From: a virus
Virus record (IMG/VR): IMGVR_UViG_3300005617_000215
Coordinates: 1 to 25,378 of that record
Reading direction: 5' to 3' (one strand)
DNA: 25,378 nt
This document shows, piece by piece, positions 900-23,215 of this stretch (its first letter is position 1; each line of letters starts with the position of its first letter). The notes beneath the pieces are model-generated. The model saw nothing but the letters and a program-made list of their open reading frames with translations. It was not told the origin of the DNA and did no database searches. The position numbers and the translations under genes were made by a program.

Positions 900-930
900 A
901 TCATATTAAGTAGTCGATTCTACCAGGCTT

Positions 931-977
931 ATGATAGAAGGGGTAGAGTAAGCCTCCTATCATTTGTCTCTTTTTTG
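931..977 (+). terminator. Probable intrinsic terminator
   Basis: ATGATAGAAGG (931-941) pairs with CCTCCTATCAT (953-963) with one mismatch around an 11-base loop. A T-rich tract follows (964-976, ending in six T). The hairpin-plus-T layout after the stop at 899 fits rho-independent termination of the NUMOD/HNH-like gene. A competing GGCTTA/TAAGCC pairing (926-931 with 949-954) overlaps it. Confidence 0.55.
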
Positions 978-989
978 TTTGGAGGCACG

Positions 990-1352
990 ATGACAGAAAC
1001 AGCGTTAGAAAGAGCTTACAAAACCCACCTTCGCCAAGAAATCGAGAAACGCTTCCCGGGGTCGTTGGTGATTATTAACAATCCGAATCTTCGTCAGGGG
1101 ATTCCGGATCTTCTCGTTCTTATCGGTTGGTTCTGGTTTGCTTTAGAAGTCAAGCGAAGTGAAACTGCGCCGTATCGACCGAATCAACTCTACTACATCG
1201 ATAAGATGAACGAGATGTCTTTCGCCGCTGCAATCTATCCCGAGAACGAAGAGGAAATTCTCGATGCAATTCAATACACGCTCGAATCTCGTGGGCACGC
1301 ATGCGTTCCTCAGCCCCAGCTCTCCCGCCTGGGTAAATTACGAGGAAGATAA
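990..1352 (+). CDS. VRR-NUC-type PD-(D/E)XK nuclease
   Basis: A 120-residue protein. GIPDLLVL, then a hydrophobic strand and LEVKRS, forms the PD-(D/E)XK nuclease signature: Asp40, Glu53 and Lys55 (counting from ATG 990) would bind metal and activate water, and Glu7 in the first helix may complete the site. The small size and the following basic/polar helix fit stand-alone phage VRR-NUC domains, which act on branched or replicating DNA. I chose ATG 990 because GGAGG (981-985) lies just upstream; an in-frame TTG at 975 would put this ribosome site inside the gene. It follows a terminator-like hairpin and overlaps the next nuclease gene by 89 bases, so it is probably the first gene of a new transcription unit. 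The specific substrate is unknown. Confidence 0.8.
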   Translation: MTETALERAYKTHLRQEIEKRFPGSLVIINNPNLRQGIPDLLVLIGWFWFALEVKRSETAPYRPNQLYYIDKMNEMSFAAAIYPENEEEILDAIQYTLESRGHACVPQPQLSRLGKLRGR

Positions 1353-1824
1353 GCTTGACCGAGTGTTCTTCGCCGCTCAAGCCGCTCGTCGTGGAATCGA
1401 ATTCCATGCCTTCGCACACGACGCCATTCGACTGAGAATCAAACTTCCAGATCTTCGATCGACGATCAACATGTACGTTAACGACGCCATTGGCTATGGC
1501 ATGACACCCGAGCAGATTCTTTATTACTCGGACAACTGCTATGGCCATGCGGACTGTGTTGGTTTTCGTAACAACACCCTTCGGATTCACGATCTTAAGA
1601 CCGGCGTAAATGAAGTCTCGATGGCTCAGCTTAGAGTCTACGCTGCACTCTTCTGCTTGGAATACCGCTTCAAGCCGAACGAGATAGCAATCGAACTTCG
1701 CATCTACCAAAACAACAACGTGAAACTCGAGATACCAGAACCAGGAGATATCTTTCTGGTCATGGATCGAATTCGGATCTTCGATAAACGAATCAACGAG
1801 CTGAAGGCGGAGGTGACGTCTTGA
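1264..1824 (+). CDS. RecB/Cas4-like PD-(D/E)XK exonuclease
   Basis: 186 residues. GHADCVGF (Asp97), RIHDLKTG (Asp110, Lys112) and the following MAQLRVYAALF (Gln122, Tyr126) are the RecB-family motifs II, III and QxxxY that place this in the Cas4/RecB group of PD-(D/E)XK exonucleases. An upstream helix with His48/His51 may carry motif I. There are no obvious cysteine clusters, so an iron-sulphur centre as in true Cas4 is not supported. ATG 1264 has GAGGA at 1251-1255, eight bases away, although this makes an 89-base overlap with the previous gene. GTG 1291, just before the conserved GTHAFLS segment, is an alternative without a visible ribosome site. The stop overlaps the TTG start of the next gene. 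A likely role is end processing in phage recombination or replication. Confidence 0.8.
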   Translation: MQFNTRSNLVGTHAFLSPSSPAWVNYEEDKLDRVFFAAQAARRGIEFHAFAHDAIRLRIKLPDLRSTINMYVNDAIGYGMTPEQILYYSDNCYGHADCVGFRNNTLRIHDLKTGVNEVSMAQLRVYAALFCLEYRFKPNEIAIELRIYQNNNVKLEIPEPGDIFLVMDRIRIFDKRINELKAEVTS

Positions 1825-4430
1825 TCCTGGATGAAGAAGCTTATCTGGCACACTACGGGATTCTTCGGCGTTCCGGCCGTTATCCCTGGGGTTCGGGTGG
1901 AAACGTCAGTACTCGAAATCGATCGTTCCTAAGCATGGTCGATGACCTACGAAGCAAAGGGATGAGCGAAACTGAAATCGCCGGTGGCTTCGGTATGACG
2001 ACGACAGAACTTCGCGCTCTTCGTTCGATCGCTAAAAACCAACAGAAGCAAGAGCAGATCAATCAGGCTCAACGCTTGAAAGATAAAGGTTACTCAAACA
2101 TAGCCATTGGTCAAAGGATGGCGCTGAATGAGTCATCAGTTCGAGCTCTATTGCTTCCTGGTCAGAAAGATCGAGCCAACATCCTCGCCGCGACAACGTC
2201 CATGCTCAAGGATCAAGTTGCTAAGAAATCTTTTGTGGACGTCGGTGCTGGAAGCGAGCACCACATTCCTTTGGGCATCAGCGAAACTAAGCTTAAGACT
2301 GCTTTGGCTGCTCTGAGAGAAGAGGGCTACGGCGTTCATTACGTCAAAGTCGAGCAGCTGGGCACAGGCAAACAGACTACGATGAAAGTTCTCGCTGCAC
2401 CAGGCGTGACTTATTCGGAGGTCTTCCGGAATCGCGACAATATCAAGAGTATCGCTGATTTCAGTGAAGACGGGGGTCGATCATTCGATTCTATAAGGGC
2501 TCCTCGATCTGTTAGCTCTAAGAGGATCGCTGTTCGGTACGCTAATCAAGGCGGCTCAGAAGCTGACGGTGTGATCTACATTCGTCCAGGCGTCAATGAT
2601 CTTTCCATGGGGAAGTCTCGTTATGCTCAGGTTCGCATTGCCGTAGATGGCACGCATTACCTTAAAGGCATGGCGATGTACAAAGACGACCTTCCTCCTG
2701 GCACCGACATCGTCTTCAACACAAACAAACACGACACTGGCCATAAGCTAGACGCAATGAAACCGTTGAGCAGTGATCCAGACAGCCCATTCGGTGCCAC
2801 TATTAGTCGTCAGCATGGTGCCATGAACATAGTCAATGAAGAAGGTCGATGGGAAACGTGGTCCCGTAGTCTCTCTTCTCAGATGCTGTCGAAGCAAAGT
2901 CCGGCTCTTGCTAAGTCGCAGCTCGACATGACATTTGATCAAAAACAGAGGCAGTTCAATGAGATCATGTCATTGACCAATCCTGCAGTTAAGAAGCGTC
3001 TGCTGGATGCTTTTGCAGACGATGCTGATTCTTCGGCAGTTCATCTAGCGGCGGCCCATCTTCCTCGTCAAGCCAACCACGTTATTCTCCCAATCAACTC
3101 GATGCGGGAGAATGAAGTCTACGCGCCCAACTATAAGAATGGCGAACGTGTCGTTCTTATCCGCCATCCACACGGCGGAGTATTCGAGATTCCTGAACTT
3201 ACCGTGAACAACCGTCAGCCCGAAGCAAAGAAGCTTCTAGGTAACGCACCAGACGCTATTGGTATTAACCATAACGTGGCGAAGAAACTATCTGGTGCTG
3301 ACTTCGATGGCGACACGGTCATAGTAATACCTAACAATCAAGGTCGAGTTAAGCATGCGCCTGCTCTCACCGGCTTGAAAGATTTCGATCCTCAAGCGTC
3401 TTACCCTCACTACCCTGGAATGCCAAGGATGACGCCTAGACAAAAGGCGTTTGAAATGGGTAACGTTTCCAACCTAATCACAGACATGACCATCCGAGGC
3501 GCTAGTACCGCCGAGCTAGCTCGAGCAGTTCGGCATTCAATGGTGGTCATCGATGCGGAGAAACACAACCTCGACTGGAAAGCCTCTGCCAAGGACAATG
3601 GAATTGCTCAACTCAAGGCCAAGTACCAAGGCAAAGGTAATGCTGGTGCAGCAACACTGATCTCTAGGGCATCGGCGAGGAAGGACGTTCTTGAAAGGAA
3701 GCAATCGTTCCGGATTGATCCTAAAACCGGAAAGAAAGTTTTCAATGAAACGGGAACGACCTTCATAAACAAACAAGGTCGAGTAGTACTAAAGACCGAG
3801 CGCTCTACCAAGCTTGCTGAGGAAGACAACGCACACAAGCTATCCTCAGGCACACCAATAGAGAAGGTCTATGCAGACCACTCGAATAGGTTGAAGGCTT
3901 TGGCTAGAGAAGCTAGGCTAGCATCGCTTCACACTAAGACTGCTGATTGGTCTCCTTCTGCTAAAGCCGCCTATCACAAGGAAGTGGCAGACCTGGATGC
4001 GAAGCTAAGAATTGCTCTTAGAAACGCGCCATTAGAAAGACAAGCCCAGGTCATAGCGAATGCCGCTGTCCACCAGAAACGGCAAGCCCACCCGGACATG
4101 GAAGCAGACGAGGTCAAGAAACTCAAATCAAGAGAGCTACAGAGAGCTCGTAATAGAACCGGCGCCCAGAAGCATCGAATTGAGATCACCGATGCAGAAT
4201 GGGCCGCTATACAGGCAGGCGCCATCAGTCATACTAAGCTTGATAAGATTCTATCTAATGCTGATCTGGATAGAGTCAAAAAGCTAGCCACTCCTAAGGT
4301 GGACTTGTTGATGACTTCTGCTAAGGAAGCTAGAGCACGAGCAATGTTGGCTTCTGGGTACACCCAAGCCGAAGTAGCAGATGCTCTTGGTGTCTCACTG
4401 ACCACTCTTAAGAGAGGACTTGGAGGGTAG
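1821..4430 (+). CDS. Candidate single-chain RNA polymerase-like protein (DFDGD double-psi barrel) with terminal HTH segments
   Basis: 869 residues from TTG 1821, which overlaps the previous stop and has a perfect GGAGGTGA at 1809-1816. Residues 494-498 read DFDGD, within KKLSGADFDGDTVIVIP. This matches the metal-binding NADFDGD loop of RNA polymerase beta-prime, where three Asp hold the catalytic magnesium. The preceding VVLIRHPHGGVFEIP parallels beta-prime VLLNRAPTLHR. An earlier Lys-bearing segment (KGMAMYKDD from Lys282; FNTNK to Lys303) could be the beta-type barrel that supplies catalytic lysines. Helix-turn-helix-like stretches lie at about 39-75 and 82-112, and one ends the protein (839-869, GYTQAEVADALGVSLTTLKR). 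Residues 8-26 (YLAHYG...GRYPWGSG) resemble the motif seen twice in the 7597-8463 product. A long Lys/Arg-rich region follows residue 560. The motif is seen; polymerase activity is inferred by analogy with YonO and QDE-1. Confidence 0.7.
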   Translation: MILDEEAYLAHYGILRRSGRYPWGSGGNVSTRNRSFLSMVDDLRSKGMSETEIAGGFGMTTTELRALRSIAKNQQKQEQINQAQRLKDKGYSNIAIGQRMALNESSVRALLLPGQKDRANILAATTSMLKDQVAKKSFVDVGAGSEHHIPLGISETKLKTALAALREEGYGVHYVKVEQLGTGKQTTMKVLAAPGVTYSEVFRNRDNIKSIADFSEDGGRSFDSIRAPRSVSSKRIAVRYANQGGSEADGVIYIRPGVNDLSMGKSRYAQVRIAVDGTHYLKGMAMYKDDLPPGTDIVFNTNKHDTGHKLDAMKPLSSDPDSPFGATISRQHGAMNIVNEEGRWETWSRSLSSQMLSKQSPALAKSQLDMTFDQKQRQFNEIMSLTNPAVKKRLLDAFADDADSSAVHLAAAHLPRQANHVILPINSMRENEVYAPNYKNGERVVLIRHPHGGVFEIPELTVNNRQPEAKKLLGNAPDAIGINHNVAKKLSGADFDGDTVIVIPNNQGRVKHAPALTGLKDFDPQASYPHYPGMPRMTPRQKAFEMGNVSNLITDMTIRGASTAELARAVRHSMVVIDAEKHNLDWKASAKDNGIAQLKAKYQGKGNAGAATLISRASARKDVLERKQSFRIDPKTGKKVFNETGTTFINKQGRVVLKTERSTKLAEEDNAHKLSSGTPIEKVYADHSNRLKALAREARLASLHTKTADWSPSAKAAYHKEVADLDAKLRIALRNAPLERQAQVIANAAVHQKRQAHPDMEADEVKKLKSRELQRARNRTGAQKHRIEITDAEWAAIQAGAISHTKLDKILSNADLDRVKKLATPKVDLLMTSAKEARARAMLASGYTQAEVADALGVSLTTLKRGLGG

Positions 4431-4434
4431 AACG

Positions 4435-4677
4435 ATGACGACGCAAAGCATGCTCACTACTGTCGACAATCCATTCAATCCCTTCACACAGTGGGACGAA
4501 TGGTTTGCTTTTGATGAGACCATGGGCTACAAAACAACGGCCTTCCTCGCTAGAGTGGTCAACACTTCAGATCAGCTCTCCGATGCTGATCAGGAAGCAG
4601 CGATTCAAGATGCGATCGACGAGATCGCACGCGAGAACGTTCTTGGTCTCTATCGAAAAGTGATTCAAGAAACATAA
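4435..4677 (+). CDS. Small conserved phage protein of unknown function
   Basis: An 80-residue acidic protein rich in aromatic residues (NPFNPFTQWDEWFAFDE near the N-terminus), with a helical second half (SDADQEAAIQDAIDEI). ATG 4435 has GGAGGG at 4422-4427, seven bases upstream and overlapping the end of the previous gene, so the two are translated together; an in-frame TTG at 4420 would destroy this spacing. Proteins of this look are, from memory, common just before the packaging genes in Gram-positive phages, but no function is known to me. It is the last gene before the non-coding block. Confidence 0.7.
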   Translation: MTTQSMLTTVDNPFNPFTQWDEWFAFDETMGYKTTAFLARVVNTSDQLSDADQEAAIQDAIDEIARENVLGLYRKVIQET

Positions 4678-4820
4678 AGACATAGGGGGGGAGGGGGGTC
4701 CGCAAATTGTACCCCCCTTTCTCATCGCCGCGCTCAAAAAAATAGCTCCGGAGGGTTTTTTGGGCAAAATTTTTCACCTGGAAACCCTTCGGAAGTACAC
4801 CGGAAGGAGTTGAAAGACCG
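4678..4820. other. Non-coding block before the packaging genes; candidate cos/packaging site
   Basis: This 143-base gap separates the nucleic-acid genes from the small terminase and HNH genes. It holds a run of seven G, an A and six G (4685-4698), a complementary ACCCCCC (4711-4717), the palindrome CTCCGGAG (4746-4753), two short T-runs, and several GGAA/TTCC-like elements just before the ATG at 4821. In cos phages of Gram-positive hosts the packaging site commonly lies beside the small terminase and HNH genes, so this is the best place for it here. The exact cut cannot be read from sequence. Confidence 0.4.
4691..4723 (+). terminator. G/C-run hairpin, possible terminator
   Basis: AGGGGGGT (4692-4699) pairs perfectly with ACCCCCCT (4711-4718) around an 11-base loop, extendable by G-U pairs and followed by TTTCTC. 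The stem is strong but the U tract is weak, so it may be an inefficient terminator or part of the packaging site. Confidence 0.45.
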
Positions 4821-7596: not shown

Positions 7597-8463
7597 TTGA
7601 GTAAGACCACTTTGGAAGAAACGCTCGCCCACTTCGGGATCAGAGGCATGAGATGGGGTGTCCGAAAGCAGACGGCCGCGGGCGCGCGCGCGAAGGCAGA
7701 TCGCAAATGGACCAGGCAAGCAAAGAGCCTTGGCGTCCAGAACATGGTCTACAAAGCGTCTCTTCGTCAGTTGAACGCGGTTGAACTGACCAAGCTCAAC
7801 AACAATCCGAAGTACAAGGGCAAGACAATCAAGCGAGACTCGGATCTCGGCCGGCAATACATGAATGACGCCGAGAAGACGTTCAATCGTGTTCTCAATC
7901 AACAATCGGCGAAGCTCATCGGTCCGAGTCCTTCTGGCAAGCTGAAGGTTAAGTTTAGCCAGAACATGAACGACACTTTTCCGACGGCCACCATCGTTCC
8001 GGCCCAAGTCCAGCACGCGGACAACGGAGGAATCGAACTCAAACTTACCTGGGACGACCAGGGGCACATCATCAACTGTGAGCTCGCCCAACCTTTGATG
8101 CAATCTGGCATCGATGGTCTTGACGAGATGCTTTCTCACTTCGGAGTCAAGGGCATGAAGTGGGGAGTTCGTCGAGCCGAGAGGCGTCGAGCTGCGAGTT
8201 CGCCAGATGCTCGAGCTGCGCAGGATGCTCATGCGAAAGCTCGCAAGGCTGGTGGGACACACGCTCTTACCAACCAAGAACTTCAACAACTCGTCACCCG
8301 AATGAATCTGGAGAAACAATTCAATCAACTCAAACCGCCGACTAAGACGTCTCGTGCGGTCAAGTTCGTTGGAGGTGTTCTCGCTTCTACCGGGAAACAG
8401 GCGGCTTCTAAAGTGGCCGGCGACCTTACGGCTAAGCAGATCGCAAAGGTGCTCAAGCCGTAA
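7597..8463 (+). CDS. Protein with two HFGxxGMxWGVR motifs, structural region, function unknown
   Basis: 288 residues from TTG 7597, behind AAAGGAGGG. It has two near-identical motifs: HFGIRGMRWGVRK at residues 12-24 and HFGVKGMKWGVRR at 181-193, each preceded by a short acidic helix (LEETLA; LDEMLS). Each is followed by a basic, Ala/Arg-rich helical region, so the protein looks like two units: the first with a beta-rich stretch (IVPAQVQHADNGGIELKLTW) before the second motif, the second ending in a helical KFVGGVLASTGKQAASKV tail. The GMKWGVR motif recurs in phage head-region proteins of Gram-positive phages, in my memory with no settled function. The same kind of motif opens the polymerase-like protein at 1821-4430. 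It may be a virion-incorporation or binding tag, but that is inference. Confidence 0.75.
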   Translation: MSKTTLEETLAHFGIRGMRWGVRKQTAAGARAKADRKWTRQAKSLGVQNMVYKASLRQLNAVELTKLNNNPKYKGKTIKRDSDLGRQYMNDAEKTFNRVLNQQSAKLIGPSPSGKLKVKFSQNMNDTFPTATIVPAQVQHADNGGIELKLTWDDQGHIINCELAQPLMQSGIDGLDEMLSHFGVKGMKWGVRRAERRRAASSPDARAAQDAHAKARKAGGTHALTNQELQQLVTRMNLEKQFNQLKPPTKTSRAVKFVGGVLASTGKQAASKVAGDLTAKQIAKVLKP

Positions 8464-10648: not shown

Positions 10649-11914
10649 ATGCCAAGACTCAGAGATAGGCTCAAGCAAGCGGTCAAACACGCTTGGAACG
10701 CTTTCACAAACCAAGAATCGGATCGGCTTTCCGCTCCGTTCTCGGGCAATGGAAGTTTCGGATCCAGGCCGCCAGACCGAGTTCGTCTCCGTTATTCCAA
10801 CGAGAGGTCGATTATCGCTGGAGTCTACACGCGTCTCAGTATCGACGTTTCTTCGATGGACATCCGACACGTTCGAGTCGACAGTGCCGGAAAGTATCTC
10901 GAAGACGTCGAGAGCGGGTTGAGCAACTGCCTTAAGGTCGAAGCGAACGTCGATCAAGGAGCTCAGCACTTCAAGCAGAACATTGCCATGCAGCTTTTCG
11001 ACCGAGGCGTTGCGGCAATTGTTCCCGTCGACACCACAATCAATCCATCTACTTCCGGCGGTTTCGACATAAAGACGCTTCGAGTTGGAGAAGTAGTCCA
11101 GTGGTATCCGAAACACGTTCGGGTCAATCTCTATAACGAAGCAACCGGACTTCATGAAGAGGTAACTCTCGAAAAGAAGTTCGTCGCGATCGTCGAGAAT
11201 CCGCTTCTTGCGGTGATGAACGAGCCTAACTCGACACTTCAGAGGCTAATCAAGAAACTAAACCTCCTGGATGCGGTGGATGAAGCGTCAAGTTCGGGCA
11301 AGCTCGACATCATAATTCAACTTCCGTATGTTGTGAAGAGTGAAGCTCGACGAGAACAAGCGCAACAACGTCGTGCGGATCTCGAAGCGCAATTGACGGG
11401 AAGTAAGTATGGCGTTGCCTATGCTGATGGTACCGAAAAGGTGATCCAGCTCAACCGGCCGGCGGAAAACAACCTCCTCAAGCAGATCGAGTACCTAACG
11501 AAGATGCTTTATGGCCAACTTGGTCTAACCGAGGAGATCATGAATGGCACCGCCAGCGAATCGGCCATGCTTAACTACCAGGCCCGAACCATTGACCCTT
11601 TGACCGTGGCCATCATGGAGGCTATGCGCCGTACGTTCCTTACGAAGACGGCCCGCTCCCAAGGACAGTGGATCATGGCATTCCGTGATCCATTCAAGCT
11701 GGTTCCTATGGAGCACTTTGCGGAGATCGCCGACAAGCTGACTCGGAATGAAGTGGCAACACCGAATGATATGAGACAGTCTATCGGCTGGAAGCCTTCT
11801 CCAGATCCAAAGGCCGACGAACTTCGAAACAGAAACATGCCAGAGCCGACTCCGTCGGAGTCGAACCAAAACCAAACACCAGGAATGGAAGGAGACAGTC
11901 AAAATGGAACCTGA
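10649..11914 (+). CDS. Portal protein
   Basis: 421 residues from ATG 10649, with GGAGGGAGGTGA upstream. The gene directly follows the large terminase, the usual portal position. The N-terminal helix is amphipathic and basic (LRDRLKQAVKHAWNAF). The central part contains the YSNERSIIAGVYTRLSIDVSS pattern, then mixed alpha/beta, and the C-terminal half has LGLTEEIMNGTASESAMLNY and RTIDPLTVAIMEAMRRTFLTK, followed by RDPFKLVPMEHFAEIADK and DMRQSIGWKP. These match the clip/stem/crown portions of HK97-like portals, which form the twelve-part ring through which DNA enters the head. The end (Gln/Asn-rich, about 395-421) is disordered and overlaps the next gene by 11 bases. Confidence 0.85.
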   Translation: MPRLRDRLKQAVKHAWNAFTNQESDRLSAPFSGNGSFGSRPPDRVRLRYSNERSIIAGVYTRLSIDVSSMDIRHVRVDSAGKYLEDVESGLSNCLKVEANVDQGAQHFKQNIAMQLFDRGVAAIVPVDTTINPSTSGGFDIKTLRVGEVVQWYPKHVRVNLYNEATGLHEEVTLEKKFVAIVENPLLAVMNEPNSTLQRLIKKLNLLDAVDEASSSGKLDIIIQLPYVVKSEARREQAQQRRADLEAQLTGSKYGVAYADGTEKVIQLNRPAENNLLKQIEYLTKMLYGQLGLTEEIMNGTASESAMLNYQARTIDPLTVAIMEAMRRTFLTKTARSQGQWIMAFRDPFKLVPMEHFAEIADKLTRNEVATPNDMRQSIGWKPSPDPKADELRNRNMPEPTPSESNQNQTPGMEGDSQNGT

Positions 11915-13916
11915 TTTCTCAGGTTACGCCACCAAGGCTGGTCTCAAGTGCTCCGACGGACGAACCATCATGCCCGACGCGTTCAAGCACATGGACGGCA
12001 AGAAGGTTCCGCTCGTCTGGCAGCATGGCCACGACACTCCCGAGAACGTTCTCGGTCACGCCATTCTCGAGGCTCGCGCAGACGGTGTTTACGCTCGAGG
12101 TTTCTTCAATGACACCCCGGCCGGCGTGAATACCAAGAAACTCGTTCAGCACGGCGACATCACCGCGCTGTCGATCTACGCGAACCAGCTTGTCGAGAAG
12201 TCGAAGCAGGTCTTCCACGGCATGATTCGAGAGCTCAGCCTCGTTCTTTCGGGTGCAAATCCGGGAGCGTTCATCGACAACGTCCAGATCGCCCATGGCG
12301 ATGGCGACTTCACTACTCTGTCGGATGAAGCGATCATCTCTGCTGGAGAATCTCTCGAGCACGGCGTTCTCAAGGACGAGAAGGACGAGAAGGTCGAAGG
12401 AGACACGAAGGACGAGAAGGTCGAGCATGCCGACGCTGGACCCACGGTTCAAGATGTTTACGACAGTCTGACCGACGATCAGAAAGACGTCGTTCACTTC
12501 ATGATCTCGGAGGCGCTTCAGGCCGCCTCTCAAACCACCGGCGACGCCGAGCACAAGGACGGCGCTCAAGAGGGAGACCTCACTCACAAGGAAGGAACCG
12601 AAACCGTCATGAACGTTTTCGACAAGAACAAGAAGGACGGCCAGGCGGCGAACGGTACCGGCCATGTCCTGTCGCACGACGCCGTCAAGGGCATCGTCGC
12701 GGACGCCGTGAAGTCTGGCTCGCTCAAGAGCGCGGTCGAGGCCTATGCGATCCAACACGGCATCAACGACATCGACCTTCTGTTTCCGGACGCGAAGCTC
12801 CTCAACGACCGGCCCGAGTTCAACCAGCGCCGGATGGAATGGGTGAATGGTGTGCTCAACGGCGCCGCTCACAGCCCGTTCTCTCGCGTGAAGACCGTCA
12901 CGGCCGACATCACCCAGCTCGAGGCTCGCGCCAAGGGCTACATCAAGGGTGAGTACAAGAAGGAAGAATGGTTCGGTCTCACCAAGCGGACCACCGGCCC
13001 GACCACGATCTACAAGAAGCAGAAGCTGGACCGGGACGACGTTCTGGACATCACCGATCTCGACGTGGTGGCCTGGATGAAGGCCGAGATGCAGGTCATG
13101 CTCAAGGAGGAGCTCGCTCGCGCGATCCTCATCGGCGACGGACGCGCTGTGGACGACGAGGACAAGGTCAAGGACCCGATCGGTGCCACCGAAGGTACCG
13201 GCATCCGTTCGATCCTGTACGATCACGAACTCTTCGTGACCACTGTGAACGCCAACGTTTCGGACGCCAGCTCCTCGATGACCGAGGTCGTCGACGCGAT
13301 CTTGGAGTCGCGCCGCTTCTACAAGGGCAGCGGGAACCCGACGTTCTACACCACCGAGGTGTGGTTGTCGAAATTCATGGTTACCCGCGATGCCGACGGC
13401 CACCGCATGTGGAAGACGCCGTCCGAGTTGGCCGCTGAGCTCATGGTCAACGAGATCGTGACGGTCGAACCGATGGAGGACGAGGAAGACCTCATCGGCA
13501 TCATCGTCAACCTCCGGGACTACAACATCGGTGCGGACAAGGGCGGCGAGACGACGTTCTTCGACGACTTCGACATCGACTACAACCAGCTCAAGTACCT
13601 GATCGAGACCCGACTTTCCGGCGCCCTCACCAAGATCAAGTCGGCGCTGGTCATCAAGTCGGTTGCGGCGGGTGCGGCTCTGGTGAACCCGATCACCGAA
13701 CCGACCTTCGTCGAGTTGACCGGCGTGGTCACCATCCCGACCCAGACCGGCGTTACCTACAAGAACGCCGACACCAGCGCGACGCTCTCCGCGGGCGCTC
13801 AGGCCGCTCTCGACCCGGGTGACACGCTCAATGTTATCGCGGTTCCGGCATCGGCCAGCTACTACTTCCTCACCAACGCCGAAGACGAGTGGTCGTTCAC
13901 GCGTCCGGCTGCCTAA
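11904..13916 (+). CDS. Fused prohead protease - major capsid protein
   Basis: 670 residues in one frame from ATG 11904 (GGAAGGAG upstream), overlapping the portal gene by 11 bases. Residues about 1-130 form an HK97-type prohead protease (S78-like): WQHGHD (His41), ITALSIYAN (Ser90) and RELSLVLSGANPGAF supply the likely catalytic His, Ser and acidic residue. Residues about 140-270 are a charged linker with KDEKDEKVE-like repeats, like the scaffold (delta) region. From about 300 the HK97 capsid fold follows (AKGYIKGEYKKEEWFGLTK, TTGPTTIYKKQKLDRDDVL, MLKEELARAILIGDGR). Residues 595-670 are a separate Ig-like beta domain also found at the end of the major tail protein. An internal ATG at 12609 (Met236), after AAGGAAGGAA, might allow a shorter capsid-only product. 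The gene uses more GC-ending codons than its neighbours, as expected for high expression. Confidence 0.88.
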   Translation: MEPDFSGYATKAGLKCSDGRTIMPDAFKHMDGKKVPLVWQHGHDTPENVLGHAILEARADGVYARGFFNDTPAGVNTKKLVQHGDITALSIYANQLVEKSKQVFHGMIRELSLVLSGANPGAFIDNVQIAHGDGDFTTLSDEAIISAGESLEHGVLKDEKDEKVEGDTKDEKVEHADAGPTVQDVYDSLTDDQKDVVHFMISEALQAASQTTGDAEHKDGAQEGDLTHKEGTETVMNVFDKNKKDGQAANGTGHVLSHDAVKGIVADAVKSGSLKSAVEAYAIQHGINDIDLLFPDAKLLNDRPEFNQRRMEWVNGVLNGAAHSPFSRVKTVTADITQLEARAKGYIKGEYKKEEWFGLTKRTTGPTTIYKKQKLDRDDVLDITDLDVVAWMKAEMQVMLKEELARAILIGDGRAVDDEDKVKDPIGATEGTGIRSILYDHELFVTTVNANVSDASSSMTEVVDAILESRRFYKGSGNPTFYTTEVWLSKFMVTRDADGHRMWKTPSELAAELMVNEIVTVEPMEDEEDLIGIIVNLRDYNIGADKGGETTFFDDFDIDYNQLKYLIETRLSGALTKIKSALVIKSVAAGAALVNPITEPTFVELTGVVTIPTQTGVTYKNADTSATLSAGAQAALDPGDTLNVIAVPASASYYFLTNAEDEWSFTRPAA

Positions 13917-14264: not shown

Positions 14265-14547
14265 TATTCTCGTGGAGTTGATAGGCGAGGATGGTCACGT
14301 ATATTTCCAACCTCCGGCTAGTCTGGCAATGGAATACCCGTGTATTCGATACGAAAGATCGACTGCACGATCCGCGTTCGCTGGCAATAAGCCTTATCGC
14401 TACACCGAGAAGTACACGTTGACTGTAATCGCCCAGGATCCGAATAGCGATATTCGACTCAAGGTTGCGGCGTTGGAGATGTGTATCCACAACCGGTGGT
14501 TTGCGGTGGCACAACTGAATCACGACGTCTTCGAACTTTACTTCTGA
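14239..14547 (+). CDS. Tail terminator/completion protein
   Basis: 102 residues from ATG 14239, with GGGAGGTG at 14225-14232; an in-frame GTG at 14230 would overlap that site. LHDILVELIGEDGHVYFQPP, MEYPCIRYERS, EKYTLTVIAQDPNSDI and a final LNHDVFELYF match small alpha/beta proteins that cap the tail tube and bind the head connector. Its position between the head closure and major tail genes is the classical one. It starts inside the previous gene, so translation is coupled. Confidence 0.7.
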   Translation: MDRQPQLHDILVELIGEDGHVYFQPPASLAMEYPCIRYERSTARSAFAGNKPYRYTEKYTLTVIAQDPNSDIRLKVAALEMCIHNRWFAVAQLNHDVFELYF

Positions 14548-14558
14548 GGAGAACTGAA

Positions 14559-15425
14559 GTGACTGCTTTGACCTGGGACCAGGCCGGCACTCGTCTCTTT
14601 GAGACGGGCGTCGATCACGGGGTCCTCTACATTCCGAACAGCTCCGGCGTGTATGACAACGGCGTCGCGTGGATGGGTCTTACGACCGTCACCGAGTCGC
14701 CTTCTGGCGGAGAAGCCAACCCGCAGTACGCCGACAACATCAAGTACCTCAACCTCTACTCGCTCGAAGAGCTTGAGGGCACCATCGAAGCCTTCACCTA
14801 CCCCGACGAGTTCGGTGAGTGCGACGGCACCTCGTCTCCGGAACCTGGCGTGAGCATCGGTCAGCAGGTGAGGAAGACCTTCGGTCTGTCCTATCGGACT
14901 CGAGTCGGCAACGATCTCGATCCCGAGGCCGGCTTCAAACTGCATCTGATCTATGGAGCGACCGCATCTCCTTCGGAGAAGGCCTACGCCACCGTCAACG
15001 ACTCGCCCGAGGCGATCAATTTCAGCTGGGACTTTTACACGGTTCCCGCTGTCATCGATGGATACAAGCCGACTTCGAGCATCGTGATCGATTCGACGAA
15101 GGTCGATGCCGACGCGCTGTCGGATCTGATGGACGCCCTCTACGGCACTGTCAGCGACGACCCTCGCCTGCCCACGCCTGACGAGGTTCTCGCGTTCTTC
15201 GCCGGCACAGTGGTCGAGGTCACGCCCACGGCACCCACCTACAACTCGACCACCGATCTGGTCACGATTCCGGGCGACACCGGTGTCATCTACCTGCTCA
15301 ACGGCGTGGTCCGTGCGGCAGGCACCTGGCCGATCACCGCCAACTCCGTGGCCAAGGCCGTTCCGGCCGCCGGCTACAAGTTCCCGGCGACGGCACAAGA
15401 CCAGTGGTGGTTCACCTTCGCTTAA
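14559..15425 (+). CDS. Major tail (tube) protein with C-terminal Ig-like domain
   Basis: 288 residues from GTG 14559, with GAGGAG at 14546-14551. It begins TALTWDQAGTRLFETGVDHG and its tube domain runs to about residue 217, ending LYGTVSDDPRLPTPDEVL. Residues 218-288 form an added beta domain with VTIPGDTGVIY, AVPAAGYKF and DQWWFTFA, very like the end of the capsid protein (VTIPTQTGVTY, AVPASASYYF, DEWSFT). Such domains usually stand on the virion surface. The tube domain recurs in the products of 16012-16650 and 16670-17392. Like the capsid gene it prefers GC-ending codons, which fits high expression. The gene lies in the normal place, after the terminator and before the assembly chaperone. 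Confidence 0.8.
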   Translation: MTALTWDQAGTRLFETGVDHGVLYIPNSSGVYDNGVAWMGLTTVTESPSGGEANPQYADNIKYLNLYSLEELEGTIEAFTYPDEFGECDGTSSPEPGVSIGQQVRKTFGLSYRTRVGNDLDPEAGFKLHLIYGATASPSEKAYATVNDSPEAINFSWDFYTVPAVIDGYKPTSSIVIDSTKVDADALSDLMDALYGTVSDDPRLPTPDEVLAFFAGTVVEVTPTAPTYNSTTDLVTIPGDTGVIYLLNGVVRAAGTWPITANSVAKAVPAAGYKFPATAQDQWWFTFA

Positions 15426-16011: not shown

Positions 16012-16650
16012 ATGAGCAAACTCACTTGGGACGATCAAGGAGAACGATTCTTTGAGATGGGAGTAGACAGAGGAGTTCTTTATGTCGACTCCGATCCAGG
16101 TGTTGCGTGGATGGGTCTCATCTCTGTTACTGAAAACGTCACTGGAGGAGAGCCTCGTCCGTATTATCTAGATGGGGAGAAGTATCTCAATCTCCTTACC
16201 GCTGAAGAGTTCGAAGCGACGATCGAAACTCTCTCTGTTCCAGAAGAATTCGGAGTATGCGATGGAGCAGTCAGCATACACAACGGGCTTTACGCCACTC
16301 AGCAACCAAGAAAGTCTTTCGGGTTGTGTTATCGAACTCGAGTCGGAAACGACGTTGCTGGGTCGGATTACGCCTATAAACTCCACCTTGTTTACAACGC
16401 ACTTGCGTCGCCGACGCAGAGAAGCTACGCGTCGATTGGTGGTTCTCCGGAGCCTACGAAGCTCAGTTGGGCTTTAAGCACCAAACCGCCAGGAATTACG
16501 GGTTTTCGACCTACAGCGCATTTGGTGATCGACTCTAGGAGTTCAGATCCCGGCGTTCTTTCTGATGTCGAAGATCTTCTGTATGGGACGGTGTCGACCG
16601 ACCCCTCTCTTCCAACTCCAGACGAACTTATTGCGATATTTGCTCCCTGA
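16012..16650 (+). CDS. Second major-tail-protein paralogue
   Basis: 212 residues from ATG 16012, behind a perfect GGAGGTGA. It is clearly related to the major tail protein: SKLTWDDQGERFFEMGVDRG, VAWMGLISVTENVTGGE, KSFGLCYRTRVGNDVAG and the end LLYGTVSTDPSLPTPDEL line up over the whole length. It lacks the C-terminal Ig-like domain and its codons are more AT-ending. It may form part of a mixed tube, a special ring at one end of the tail, or be a minor tail protein. It lies between the tail chaperone and a third paralogue. Confidence 0.75.
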   Translation: MSKLTWDDQGERFFEMGVDRGVLYVDSDPGVAWMGLISVTENVTGGEPRPYYLDGEKYLNLLTAEEFEATIETLSVPEEFGVCDGAVSIHNGLYATQQPRKSFGLCYRTRVGNDVAGSDYAYKLHLVYNALASPTQRSYASIGGSPEPTKLSWALSTKPPGITGFRPTAHLVIDSRSSDPGVLSDVEDLLYGTVSTDPSLPTPDELIAIFAP

Positions 16651-16669
16651 GAAAAAGGAGGTGACTGAA

Positions 16670-17392
16670 ATGACTAAGTTAACGTGGGATGGCGATCGAG
16701 AATACCATCAAGGGGTAGATCGTGGCGTTTTATATCCCACAACCGGCCCTGGCGAGGCGTGGAATGGGCTGACCTCTGTCACTGAGTCACCATTGGAGTC
16801 TCAGGTAAAGTCTCGTTATATTGATGGGGTGAAGGTTTCAGCAAGTCAGCCTAAAGGCGAGTTTTCTGGGACGATAGAAGCTTTTACATATCCCAGTTCT
16901 TTCTACGCTGATGTCTTGCTTCAGAAAAGAGCGCCTCGATTCGGTTTTAGTTATCGCGTAATGATTGAGGACTCTTATGAAATCCACATCGTCTACAACG
17001 CGACAACATCTCCATCGAGACGTCAGTACCAACAGAGAGAAACCAGCGCGTTTAGTTGGAACTTCACTACAATTCCGATCGACGTTCCTGGAGCTAAGAA
17101 AGCAGCGCATTTGATTGTTTCCGCTTCGATCGCATATTCTTGGACCGTACAGGCAATCGAAGACATTCTTTACGGGACAGAAACAACTGACCCAAGACTT
17201 CCCACTCCTCAAGAGATTTGGGATGTTGTAGAGGAGAACTCCATCCTATTGGTCATAGATCATGGAGATGGAACCTTTACTATAACCGGTCCGGATGATG
17301 TAATTACGGATCTCGGTTCGAATACTTTCGAAGTGACTTGGCCTTCGGTCATTAATATCGACGCCGACACGTATCAGATCAGCTCTCTCTAG
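16670..17392 (+). CDS. Third major-tail-protein paralogue with a different C-terminal extension
   Basis: 240 residues from ATG 16670, with AAGGAGGTGA upstream. It keeps the family start (TKLTWDGDREYHQGVDRGVL), SGTIEAFTYPSSFYADVL, the FGFSYRV strand and LYGTETTDPRLPTPQEI, but is the most diverged of the three and has a shorter central region. After the tube domain it carries about 50 residues (ILLVIDHGDGTFTITGPDDV and following) forming a small beta domain different from the capsid/tail Ig-like one. Its role is not settled by sequence; a tail-tip ring or an accessory tube subunit are possibilities. Confidence 0.7.
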   Translation: MTKLTWDGDREYHQGVDRGVLYPTTGPGEAWNGLTSVTESPLESQVKSRYIDGVKVSASQPKGEFSGTIEAFTYPSSFYADVLLQKRAPRFGFSYRVMIEDSYEIHIVYNATTSPSRRQYQQRETSAFSWNFTTIPIDVPGAKKAAHLIVSASIAYSWTVQAIEDILYGTETTDPRLPTPQEIWDVVEENSILLVIDHGDGTFTITGPDDVITDLGSNTFEVTWPSVINIDADTYQISSL

Positions 17393-17404: not shown

Positions 17405-18412
17405 ATGGCAACTGTACAAAGTATGAACCTAATTCGGTTGACGGCGTTAGAAGACGCTACGGTCATCGACGGGTACATCAATGGATCCGGAGATCTGATC
17501 TTGGTGCAGCACGATAGCACTGAGATCAATGCTGGATCGGCTCTTCCTCTCATGCCAGACGCGAGCGAGACAGTGAAAGGTAAGGTAGAGCTCGCGACGA
17601 GCGCTGAAACTATCACCGGAACCGATGCTGTTCGAGCCGTTACGCCGGCCGGACTCCAAGCAAAAGTAGCAAGCGATACAGCGAAAGGAATTGTAGAGCT
17701 CGCCACCAGTGCTGAAACTATCACCGGAACCGACACCGCTCGAGCCGTCACACCTGCTGGCCTCCAGGCAAAAGTGGCAAGCGATACAGCGCAAGGAATC
17801 GTAGAGCTCGCCACCAGTGCTGAAACTATTACCGGAACTGATACTGCTCGAGCTGTTACGCCTGCTGGTCTCCAAGCAAAAGTAGCAAGCGACACAGCGC
17901 AAGGAATCGTAGAGCTCGCGACGAGCGCTGAAACTATTACCGGAACTGATACTGCTCGAGCTGTTACGCCTGCTGGTCTTTCTGCGGTTTTGTCGGGAAT
18001 TCAAGAGAATAAATTGACTGCTACTGGTAGTACCGGTAGCACTACTTACACCGCCACACTTACAAGCTCGACAACACCACAACTTGCTTTCGTTGCTCCA
18101 GCTTCCGGAAAAGTTCTCATTCACTGGGGTTCATATATTGTGAATAGTGCTTCTTCTGGAATAGCTTACATGAGTTGGGAAATTCGAGCCGGATCCACTT
18201 TAGGGTCCGGAAGCGTTATTGTTGCTGCCTCTGACGATCGCGCTGTGGCGCAACGTGGCGATAGTGCTGGTTTAGACGATCAGTGTTCCGGATGGTCTTC
18301 TCTAGTTACCGGTTTGACTCCGGGTAGCTCATACAACATTCAAGGGATGTTTAGAGTCACGGCAAACACGGGCTATTACGGTCCTCGAAACCTTATCGTC
18401 GACCCTCGATAA
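17405..18412 (+). CDS. Tail fibre protein with four 36-residue fibre repeats
   Basis: 335 residues from ATG 17405, behind AAAGGAGGAG. After an N-terminal anchor of about 57 residues there are four tandem units of the type GIVELATSAETITGTDTARA followed by VTPAGLQAKVASDTA, the phage tail fibre repeat (Pfam Phage_fiber_2 type), which builds a trimeric shaft. The final 140 residues (from TATGSTGSTTYTATLTS onward) are a beta-rich tip, likely for receptor binding; I do not recognise the domain. Some copies are almost identical in DNA. The gene is in an unusual place for a fibre, before the tape measure gene. Confidence 0.8.
   Translation: MATVQSMNLIRLTALEDATVIDGYINGSGDLILVQHDSTEINAGSALPLMPDASETVKGKVELATSAETITGTDAVRAVTPAGLQAKVASDTAKGIVELATSAETITGTDTARAVTPAGLQAKVASDTAQGIVELATSAETITGTDTARAVTPAGLQAKVASDTAQGIVELATSAETITGTDTARAVTPAGLSAVLSGIQENKLTATGSTGSTTYTATLTSSTTPQLAFVAPASGKVLIHWGSYIVNSASSGIAYMSWEIRAGSTLGSGSVIVAASDDRAVAQRGDSAGLDDQCSGWSSLVTGLTPGSSYNIQGMFRVTANTGYYGPRNLIVDPR
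17576..17980 (+). repeat. Four tandem 108-bp repeats inside the fibre gene
   Basis: Copies begin at 17576, 17684, 17792 and 17900; the last is cut to about 81 bases. Copies 3 and 4 share an identical stretch of over 50 bases (GCTGAAACTATTACCGGAAC and onward, from about 17819 and 17927), while copy 1 and copy 4 share GCGACGAGCGCTGAAACTAT, so the array looks like a mosaic made by slippage or conversion. Confidence 0.85.
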
Positions 18413-21800: not shown

Positions 21801-23215
21801 TCGCTGTGGCCGTGAATGTCATGTCGGGAGCTTTGGGTGGTGCGGCCGCGATACTCATCGTTGCCGGCGCACTTGCCATCTTGGCTCCGATTCTTCTCAC
21901 CTTCGGACAAATGTCTTGGGGAGAGATAGTAAAGGGACTTGCTACCCTGGCCGGCGTCTTCATCGTCCTTGGAATAGCAGGAGCCCTTCTTACGCCCGTT
22001 ATCCCGACGTTGCTCGGTCTCGGCGTGGCGGTCGCTCTAATCGGCGTTGGTCTACTGGCGGCCGGCGTTGGTCTACTGGCATTCTCTCTCGCCATTACAG
22101 CGCTAAGCATATCCGGAGCGGCACTTACGACGACCATCGTAGCCATCGTGAGCGCCCTGATCGGTCTTATACCAACCATTATCAAGGGGTTGGGCGTAGC
22201 TCTTGTAACGCTTGCTAGTGTCCTTGGGAATGCTGTTCCTGCAATGACGCAGGCTCTGACAGCGATCCTCATTGCGTTGCTTGACGCTATTATCGCCATC
22301 ACGCCGAAACTGGCCGAGGCGTTGCTCAAGCTCATTCTATATTTGATCGACATTCTAGAGAAGGCCACTCCCAGGATGGCTGAGGCGGGCTACAACATAT
22401 TGCTCGCCATCCTCAAGTCGATCCGTTCGCATATTCGTGAGATGACGGACGTCGCTCTGGAGATTGTGGCTGAGTTTATCGAAGGCATGGGAGATGGTCT
22501 TCCCAAAGTCCTGAAGGCCGGCGCAGACTTCATCATCAAGTTCATCAACGGACTTGCTGACACGATCCGTAATCAATCGGAAGAACTAGGTAAAGCTGGC
22601 GGAAACCTTGCTACCGCCATCATCGAGGGCATGGCTAAGGGTCTACTAGGCGGATCCAGCGTCATCTCCAAGGCAGCGAAAGACGTCGCAAAGAATGCCT
22701 TGAATGCTGCGAAGGAATTCCTGGGAATCAACTCCCCAGCGAGGGCTTTCGTTGAGGTTGGCGAATTCTCGGCTCAAGGTATGGCCGTGGGTATCTACAA
22801 CCTTGCTGATGTGGTGGCTGGTGCTGCCGAGGACATGGGAGACGGTGCGCTCGAATCGCTCCGTCGCTCTCTTTCTGGCATCCCGGCACTCATGAAGAAC
22901 GACATCAACATGGCTCCGACAATCACGCCGGTGCTGGATCTTAGCGGTGTTCGAAAGACTGCGGGCCAGATTGGTTCGATTCTTTCTACTACGCCGATGT
23001 CAGTTCAGGTGTCTTCTAGGAAAGCTACGGACGTTTCTGCTGGCTTCCAAGAGAGCCAGGACGCTGCGGACGATGACGAATCGCGCCGTGGTGGAGATAC
23101 ATTCAACTACAACCAGTACAACAACTCGCCGAAGGCTCTGTCTGAGGCTGAGATCTACAGGCAAACCAAGAACCAGCTAGCAGTGGCGAAGGGAGTAGTG
23201 TCCGCAAATGCTTAA
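18803..23215 (+). CDS. Tape measure protein
   Basis: 1470 residues from ATG 18803, overlapping the previous stop (ATGA); an in-frame GTG at 18782 lies inside the previous gene. The N-terminus (DMQFNNKQFEEGIRSTLAAL) and following helical part are typical of tape measure proteins, which set tail length and travel with DNA into the cell. From about residue 700 to 1100 there are tandem hydrophobic units of 56-59 residues, each opening with SWEEIAKGLT-like sequence (Ser750, 809, 868, 925, Gly982, Ser1038) and followed by two strongly hydrophobic helices, likely membrane-inserting during DNA entry. Further hydrophobic helices continue to about 1160. NSPARAF and GEFSAQGMAVGI near 1310 recur in many tape measures. 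The C-terminal part is polar. At roughly 1.5 angstrom per residue the length suggests a tail of some 220 nm; this is a rough rule. Confidence 0.9.
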   Translation: MSKEVDERVVDMQFNNKQFEEGIRSTLAALDKLNQSLKLEGASRGFEQVSAAANHVQLGNIEQGVNSISDRFHAMSVVAITALANIANRAAETGFMLVKSLTVDPINQGLQEYQTNINSIQTILSNTRWQNTGLNDVIKALNELNLYSDQTIYNFSQMAHNIGTFTAAGVKLEVATNAIKGIANLAAVSGSSAEQASNAMYQLSQAIATGTLKLIDWNSVVNAGLGGKVFQDALVQTARVHGVAVDKMIKDAGSFRGSLEKGWATASILTETLSHFTADLNEEQLISMGYSKQQALDIIAMGKDATDAATKVKTLTQLLGTMRESAGSGWAQTWQIIFGDFDEARNLFTSVNDTLGGFIKNSADNRNELLQTWKDLGGRDVLIDSIGNSFEALLAVLKPIREGFREIFPKATAVGLYNITYAIRSFTETLKIGGENADKLRRTFAGLFAIFGIGWDAVKAAATVLARLLGIANKGTGDFLTITASIGDFLVELRKAIQEGKGFEKIFGAVGNVLAVPINLLRVLVGYAAKLFDNFDAARAARGLTGLVAKFEPLTRLGEVIVDVWERVLHVLDNVANDASQLGTKILDAFGPFSDYIRKAVGEFNFDDLFKGLNTGLFGTFILTIRNAFGRGGVTGLLHNATQALGQLTDTMQTMQNTLRAATLLEIALAIGILTISVKELSRIPADDLTKSLTAITVMFGQLLGALTLFSHATGVKGIVKIPLITAGLILLAVAVDILAVAVKKLADLSWEQLTKGLTGVTVLIGALTAAVRLMPPAPGMIASSIALNLLAVAVKILASAVSDISGMSWEEIAKGLTGVSAVLVALALFTKFAAVEKGGVLAGAGIVLLATGIKILALAMLDFAKLSWEDIGKGLTAMAGGLLLMGIALSAIPPTAPLIAVGIIGVSFALGLMADALKKMGGMSWSDIGAGLTAMAGGLLLIGLALTLIPPYAPLTAAGILIVAASLGMMADALKQMGSMGWGEIAKGLVTLAGALLIIAVAVNVMSGALGGAAAILIVAGALAILAPILLTFGQMSWGEIVKGLATLAGVFIVLGIAGALLTPVIPTLLGLGVAVALIGVGLLAAGVGLLAFSLAITALSISGAALTTTIVAIVSALIGLIPTIIKGLGVALVTLASVLGNAVPAMTQALTAILIALLDAIIAITPKLAEALLKLILYLIDILEKATPRMAEAGYNILLAILKSIRSHIREMTDVALEIVAEFIEGMGDGLPKVLKAGADFIIKFINGLADTIRNQSEELGKAGGNLATAIIEGMAKGLLGGSSVISKAAKDVAKNALNAAKEFLGINSPARAFVEVGEFSAQGMAVGIYNLADVVAGAAEDMGDGALESLRRSLSGIPALMKNDINMAPTITPVLDLSGVRKTAGQIGSILSTTPMSVQVSSRKATDVSAGFQESQDAADDDESRRGGDTFNYNQYNNSPKALSEAEIYRQTKNQLAVAKGVVSANA

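Follow-up and report, generated by a model that had tools for sequence, protein, structure and literature searches.

The crAss-like phage protein gp66 and gp96 of phage P23-45 are single-chain two-barrel RNA polymerases which are carried in virions. The P23-45 protein gp96 forms a fusion with the tape measure protein (PMC10770324). The nearest described relatives by sequence of the enzyme reported here are the non-virion RNA polymerases gp64 of P23-45 and gp62 of P74, which have 616 amino acids (PMC10770324). YonO of the Bacillus phage SPbeta is a single chain of about 100 kDa and strictly DNA-dependent (PMC5467207), its promoter having been left undetermined in the 2017 paper, and the eukaryotic RNA-silencing enzyme QDE-1 copies DNA too (PMC2950127). 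In this work a predicted enzyme of this kind was analyzed in the IMG/VR record IMGVR_UViG_3300005617_000215, of which positions 1 to 25,378, the whole stretch of 25,378 nucleotides, are referred to as the window. The protein belongs to PHROG 4291, and we read it, with a probability of roughly 0.6, as a virion-carried DNA-dependent RNA polymerase which would be loaded by an N-terminal tag and would initiate at a phage promoter before the early genes, "early" meaning the non-structural region beside the tail and lysis genes. The 29-bp promoter-like element and the conserved N-terminal tag, related to DUF7211, are new here; the identification of the polymerase alone is not, because earlier labels in PHROGs and RefSeq already name the family a polymerase.

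Membership of the family is full-length, the phrog_4291 profile matching with 1301 bits from residue 4 to residue 867 of the 869. The existing PHROG 4291 entry consists of a label, and we found no function, promoter or tag described for it. Searches with tblastn identified homologues in 250 phage records, chiefly phages of Arthrobacter, Gordonia, Streptomyces and Lactococcus, with at least 80% of the length covered in 249 of them. A homologue was also present on 478 stretches in IMG/VR and on 135 stretches of bacterial and archaeal assemblies, gut Firmicutes for the most part. The hosts are thus Actinobacteria and Firmicutes, and there are also many prophages. Depositors have labelled the homologues as helix-turn-helix (HTH) protein, hypothetical protein or RNA-dependent RNA polymerase, the last label being mentioned in one Streptomyces phage paper (PMC11536984). 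An experimental study of a PHROG 4291 polymerase was not found in the literature.

A preliminary description of the window had put forward a single-chain RNA polymerase candidate with a DFDGD catalytic loop at residues 494-498. The open reading frame (ORF) is real, and the loop, which lies within KKLSGADFDGDTVIVIP, is invariant across 157 homologues with identities down to about 44%. In this set no variation was seen in L490-D498 (LSGADFDGD), and so not in the Asp triad D494, D496 and D498, nor in R448, P450, H451, Lys282 (HYLKGMA) and Lys303 (FNTNK); invariance of the whole LSGADFDGD segment means that DFDGD is not a chance motif. The same description had suggested that a segment with Lys282, Lys288 and Lys303 could be a second barrel, and its placement of the barrel holds for Lys282 and Lys303, while Lys288 is not invariant. 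Its likening of RHPHGG (residues 448-453) to the beta-prime NRAPTLHR region is consistent with profile alignments, in which RSPH of YonO and NRRPD of P23-45 gp64 are the counterparts.

The landmarks K282-G283, NTNK303, R448-x-P-H, GAD-F-D-G-D, MGxVSNLIT and VIDxxKH are colinear with KG, TKSQFK, RSPH, DNDGD, IGxxSN and IDxAKT in YonO, and KG, GADYDGD, LGRVEVN and VAVDRQK are their counterparts in gp64. A pair of helices downstream of the loop, aligned with IGEYSNNITK...FTIDFAKT of YonO and LGRVEVN...VAVDRQK of gp64, is likely to be the bridge-helix region. YonO thus resembles the window protein in being a single chain of similar mass with a DxDGD triad and colinear motifs; it differs in belonging to a separate family, phrog_8308, and no comparable N-terminal tag was noticed in the YonO alignment. 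The phrog_8308 profile matched at E=4e-5, restricted to residues 423-506, and end-to-end homology with this family was not found, pairwise and profile comparisons being weak. For gp64 the similarity is centred on GADYDGD (BLASTP E=7e-5; profile comparison score 45, against a maximum of 32 among 100 column shuffles), and neither a tag nor a terminal HTH was noticed in gp64 or gp62, close relatives of which were not found outside Thermus phages in the phage collection. It should be noted that P23-45 gp64 (L186:15291-17141), a crystallised non-virion RNA polymerase, is labelled "head protein" in both PHROGs (phrog_25317) and RefSeq. The Pfam family of eukaryotic RNA-dependent RNA polymerases, PF05183, matched the window protein below threshold (residues 485-579; 15.6 bits against a gathering cut-off of 23.8) and matched 26 of 32 relatives at E ≤ 1 (best 1.1e-4). 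Sequence searches of the PDB with the protein or with a 32-sequence profile gave just HTH, helical and chance matches.

The fold was assigned by structure prediction. A whole-protein AlphaFold2 (AF2) model from an 80-sequence alignment (predicted local distance difference test, pLDDT, 84.9; predicted template modelling score, pTM, 0.75) gave seven Foldseek matches in the PDB at E ≤ 0.001, all of them QDE-1 or the gp64/gp62 enzymes of Thermus phages. With residues 225-625 modelled alone (pLDDT 85.3), all 23 matches at this threshold were single-chain two-barrel RNA polymerases, the best being QDE-1 (E 7.8e-12; TMq up to 0.58), followed by P74 gp62 and P23-45 gp64 (E 2e-10), with plant RDR2 and P23-45 gp96 (E=2.6e-6) also among them. 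The crAss-like phage gp66 was a weak match (E=0.013), and multisubunit RNA polymerases came next in the ranking after the single-chain enzymes. Both models strongly match only single-chain two-barrel RNA polymerases in the PDB, in line with the two double-psi barrels that had been expected and in support of the earlier interpretation, and on these models the predicted fold can be assigned with high confidence. QDE-1 is the best fold match, yet the protein stays below the Pfam cut-off of that enzyme's family. The window polymerase shares the ancient two-barrel kind with cellular RNA polymerase; membership of the multisubunit enzymes themselves was rejected, both barrels being on a single chain.

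In relatives of the window we identified a 29-bp ungapped element with the layout TCGCA-n4-TTACA-n5-TATAATGAGA. Two intergenic 10-mers, ATGAGACCCC in Streptomyces phage RosaAsantewaa (6 of 18 intergenic regions; shuffle maximum 2) and CTATAGTAGA in Lactococcus phage 1706 (6 of 25; shuffle maximum 3), both fall within this single layout, which reads TCGCAAGATTTACAAGGCCTATAATGAGA in Streptomyces phages (a composite), TCGCATGTTTTACATATACTATAGTAGAA in 1706, TCGCGAAAATTACACGCCCTATAATAGAA in Arthrobacter, TCGCATATATTACACGTCCTATAATGAGA in Gordonia and ACGCGAAAAATACAGGCTCCTTTATGGAA in Faecalibacterium; the RosaAsantewaa copy at 22573 is TCGCAAGGTCTACAAGGCCTATAATGAGACCCC. A leave-one-clade-out matrix, trained each time without the clade being tested and with the threshold set for 0.5 matches per strand, found 47 matches on the coding strand and one on the opposite strand of seven polymerase-bearing genomes, where about 0.5 per strand were expected, and 0-2 per strand (best 13 bits) in six control phages without this polymerase. 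In an independent set of prophage and assembly loci, none of which was used for building the matrix (80 loci, 1.43 Mb, cut-off ≥12 bits), there were 151 plus-strand and 7 minus-strand matches, to be compared with 10 and 4 in 78 loci (0.42 Mb) of YonO phages. A k-mer approach had given nothing clear on single prophage loci, where the matrix succeeded.

The element lies 880-1247 bp (median 931) 5' of the polymerase start, before the operon, in 75 of 79 loci on the plus strand and in none of the 79 on the minus strand; the loci are interrelated and these counts are not independent events, while sites before unrelated genes within one genome are. Of the stretches scanned in RosaAsantewaa, Mudcat and Chikenjars just 5.5-8% is intergenic DNA, yet all 22 strong sites fall within it, many of them 19-31 nt 5' of a gene start. 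Sites in 1706 and in locus L133 directly precede Rfam matches to transfer RNA (tRNA), of 38.5 and 30.2 bits, and the element is therefore unlikely to be a translation signal. The tRNA-like genes directly downstream of elements at L269:31050-31163 and L133:8916-9009 are missed by ARAGORN and detected by Rfam. In the window the matrix scan found no strong element, the structural module included, just the weak copy listed in Table 1. Scanning the first 12 kb for sigma-70 promoters revealed no excess.

At its N-terminus the polymerase carries a tag with the consensus LxHYG..SGRYPWGSG, within a segment (residues 1-34) predicted to be disordered in the AF2 model (pLDDT<50). Conservation over residues 9-26 nevertheless averages 3.79 bits, the 20th highest value among 852 segments scored along the protein, in a set of sequences chosen partly by the tag motif; counted by locus, without that filter, 164 of 170 have the tag in some form, which is canonical in 156 and interrupted by an insertion in 8, and most loci lacking it look truncated or frame-disturbed. 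The tag is related to the DUF7211 motif found on other proteins of the same phages. When 78 polymerases were scanned with a hidden Markov model of 123 DUF7211-type tags, the best match fell on the tag in 77 of them; the median score was 2.2 bits, while shuffled sequences gave -4.3. DUF7211-type tags are borne by one to five further proteins at each locus, most of them encoded between cos and the capsid genes; they include a protein with a papain-fold glutamine-deamidase domain, a DUF5662 protein and a portal protein. The polymerase homologue of phage 1706 (EU081845), orf75, carries the annotation "structural protein", which likely has an experimental basis, though it lies outside the head-tail module; orf7, which has two DUF7211-type tags, carries it too. 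Tagged and otherwise unrelated proteins lie at L124:17756-18757 (papain-fold deamidase), L103:1210-2151 (DUF5662 protein), L171:18181-19833 (portal protein) and L087:17275-17973 (uncharacterised), all in polymerase-bearing phages or prophages.

Taken together, these features suggest a DNA-dependent RNA polymerase with two double-psi barrels on one chain, in which the barrel at about residues 235-340 would supply Lys282 and Lys303, the barrel at about 418-504 would supply the Mg-binding triad Asp494/496/498, and HTH segments at both termini would probably help to bind DNA. The disordered tag probably loads the enzyme into the virion, so that it would enter the cell with the DNA and transcribe the early region, initiating at the 29-bp layout 5' of early genes, phage tRNA-like genes and the nuclease/exonuclease/polymerase operon. 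Late transcripts would probably be made by host RNA polymerase, since the window's structural module has no strong elements; the earlier suggestion that the phage transcribes its own genes without the host enzyme would then probably apply to the early genes and not to that module. The analysis itself establishes the family, the fold match, the invariance of the active-site residues, the presence and location of the element and the conservation of the tag; catalysis, promoter recognition by this enzyme and packaging are what we infer. The functional class proposed is that of gp66 and gp96, to which fold similarity is weak, with a short tag instead of the tape measure fusion of gp96.

Several results weigh against this reading. 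Whole-model TM-scores were low, about 0.3 (0.34 to QDE-1), which is why the core was modelled separately, and the profile comparison with YonO alone was not significant, its score being reached by 5 of 100 shuffles, although it nonetheless aligned the right motifs. PF23847 (DUF7211) gave no match to the polymerase at E ≤ 1, the relation being at the level of the motif, and the evidence for a place in the virion is a single depositor's annotation, that of 1706. The window's own operon-upstream copy of the element is weak (5.2 bits), and many phages have TATAAT within the element, which host RNA polymerase together with a phage factor could thus use as well.

Alternatively, the enzyme may be synthesised after infection as a non-virion RNA polymerase, as P23-45 gp64 is, its tag having a role other than packaging; the gene sits in the replication/nuclease module and not among structural genes, and an operon that carries the element suggests self-driven synthesis. 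The structural annotation of the 1706 homologue outside the head-tail module, and the related tag on other proteins of these phages, including orf7, argue for packaging, and on balance we regard synthesis after infection as rather unlikely. For virion delivery of the polymerase taken by itself the odds are about even. More tentative is the wider proposal that HxG...SGRYPWGSG on the polymerase and HHGxxGMKWGVRR on the other proteins represent a general virion-loading tag, by which the two-barrel polymerase and putative effectors such as the papain-fold deamidase would enter the host with the DNA, the polymerase starting infection from its own cross-phylum promoter. If true, such a loading tag for cargo would serve a large siphophage group with hosts among Actinobacteria and Firmicutes.

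With regard to what reads the element, TTACA is separated from the TATAAT-like box by 5-6 nt, which is not sigma-70 spacing and does not place it at -35; the relatives from Faecalibacterium, and most of those from Firmicutes, have CTTTTATG as this box, which makes a poor -10, with the remainder of the element kept; and the layout is present in every tested clade with this polymerase, across two host phyla. These features point to a polymerase of the window type as the likely reader, and DNA-dependent transcription from the element is, in our estimation, probable. They also speak against a host RNA polymerase promoter served by a phage activator, comparable to MotA of T4, with another job for the two-barrel polymerase. 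That scheme, for which the TATAAT boxes and the several HTH or regulator-like proteins encoded by these phages could be cited, appears unlikely.

A role of the protein in replication or recombination instead of transcription, for instance in RNA priming or at the ends of the genome, is more doubtful still: for all its co-encoded VRR-Nuc and Cas4-like exonuclease, nearby helicase and position beside cos, these phages have a separate primase/polymerase gene, and promoter-like elements 5' of unrelated genes point to transcription. An RNA-dependent RNA polymerase in the sense of the PHROGs and RefSeq name is highly improbable in spite of QDE-1 being the closest solved fold and of the sub-threshold PF05183 match, and the literal label was rejected, as QDE-1 copies DNA as well (PMC2950127), YonO, the single-chain relative that has been studied, depends strictly on DNA (PMC5467207) and the carriers are double-stranded DNA phages with a conserved DNA element.

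The virion-carried polymerase proposed here would show how a large and much-isolated group of phages starts gene expression, comprising about 250 sequenced isolates (Arthrobacter, Gordonia, Streptomyces, Lactococcus and others) together with prophages of numerous gut Firmicutes. To the superfamily of two-barrel RNA polymerases it adds a small branch with an explicit predicted promoter, which opens promoter recognition by a minimal enzyme of this kind to direct testing. For DUF7211, a motif that is widespread and has no known function, the tag offers a hypothesis that can be tested.

Table 1. Features of the polymerase locus, in positions of the window
Feature	Position	Strand	Basis or remark
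Weak promoter-like element before the polymerase operon	911..939	+	5.2 bits; syntenic position; relatives 10-29 bits
VRR-Nuc endonuclease, first gene of the operon	975..1352	+	phrog_93 1e-12; order kept in relatives
RecB/Cas4-like exonuclease	1264..1824	+	phrog_3953 4e-70; stop overlaps polymerase start
Predicted single-chain two-barrel RNA polymerase, 869 amino acids, TTG start	1821..4430	+	phrog_4291 and AF2/Foldseek; PHROG 4291
N-terminal tag, residues 9-26 (LAHYGILRRSGRYPWGSG)	1845..1898	+	proposed virion-loading signal
N-terminal helical/HTH region, residues 36-110	1926..2150	+	HTH_38 sub-threshold at 78-100; helices in model
Double-psi barrel B region, residues ~235-340	2523..2840	+	limits approximate, inferred from model strands
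Lys282 and Lys303 codons	2664-2666; 2727-2729	+	both invariant; inside barrel B region
Double-psi barrel A region, residues ~418-504	3072..3332	+	contains R448-x-P-H451 and catalytic loop
R448-x-P-H451	3162-3173	+	
Catalytic loop D494-F-D-G-D498	3300-3314	+	
Helix pair, residues 539-558 and 563-582	3435..3566	+	MGNVSNLITDM (546-556), VVIDAEKH (575-582)
C-terminal HTH, residues 837-865	4329..4415	+	PF02796 HTH_7, 24.8 bits vs cut-off 23.8
Small conserved ORF 3' of polymerase	4420..4677	+	so placed in every annotated relative inspected
cos site, 9-nt overhang CGCCGCGCT	4726..4734	.	genome ends at 4725 (right) and 4735 (left)
Protein with two DUF7211 tags (LAHFGIRGMRWGVRK, LSHFGVKGMKWGVRR)	7597..8463	+	PF23847 2.7e-23; between cos and terminase large subunit gene

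A contig of 43,457 bp, 99.8-100% identical to the window, ends at 4725 and begins at 4735, leaving nine bases between; the window therefore spans a joined cos site and consists of the right end of one genome copy joined to the left end of the next. For two related Arthrobacter phages of cluster AM, of which Mudcat carries the polymerase gene, 9-base 3' ends have been reported (PMC5513430). The polymerase gene is the last but one at the right end of complete genomes such as those of RosaAsantewaa (where the homologue is gp54), Qui, Mudcat and 1706, and a single small conserved gene comes after it; in most, VRR-Nuc and then the overlapping RecB/Cas4-like exonuclease precede it. The small ORF product (compare 1706 orf76) has the conserved pattern DNPFNPFTQWDEW...GY.T.. 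and is a possible partner of the polymerase. Elsewhere in the window, the prohead protease and major capsid protein are fused in one ORF at 11904-13916, a fusion also reported for Arthrobacter cluster AM phages (PMC5513430). A tail-region protein at 17405-18412 contains repeats of about 36 amino acids (VELATSAETITGTDxARAVTPAGLQAKVASDTA), and tail-protein paralogues are located at 14481-15425, 16012-16650 and 16565-17392.

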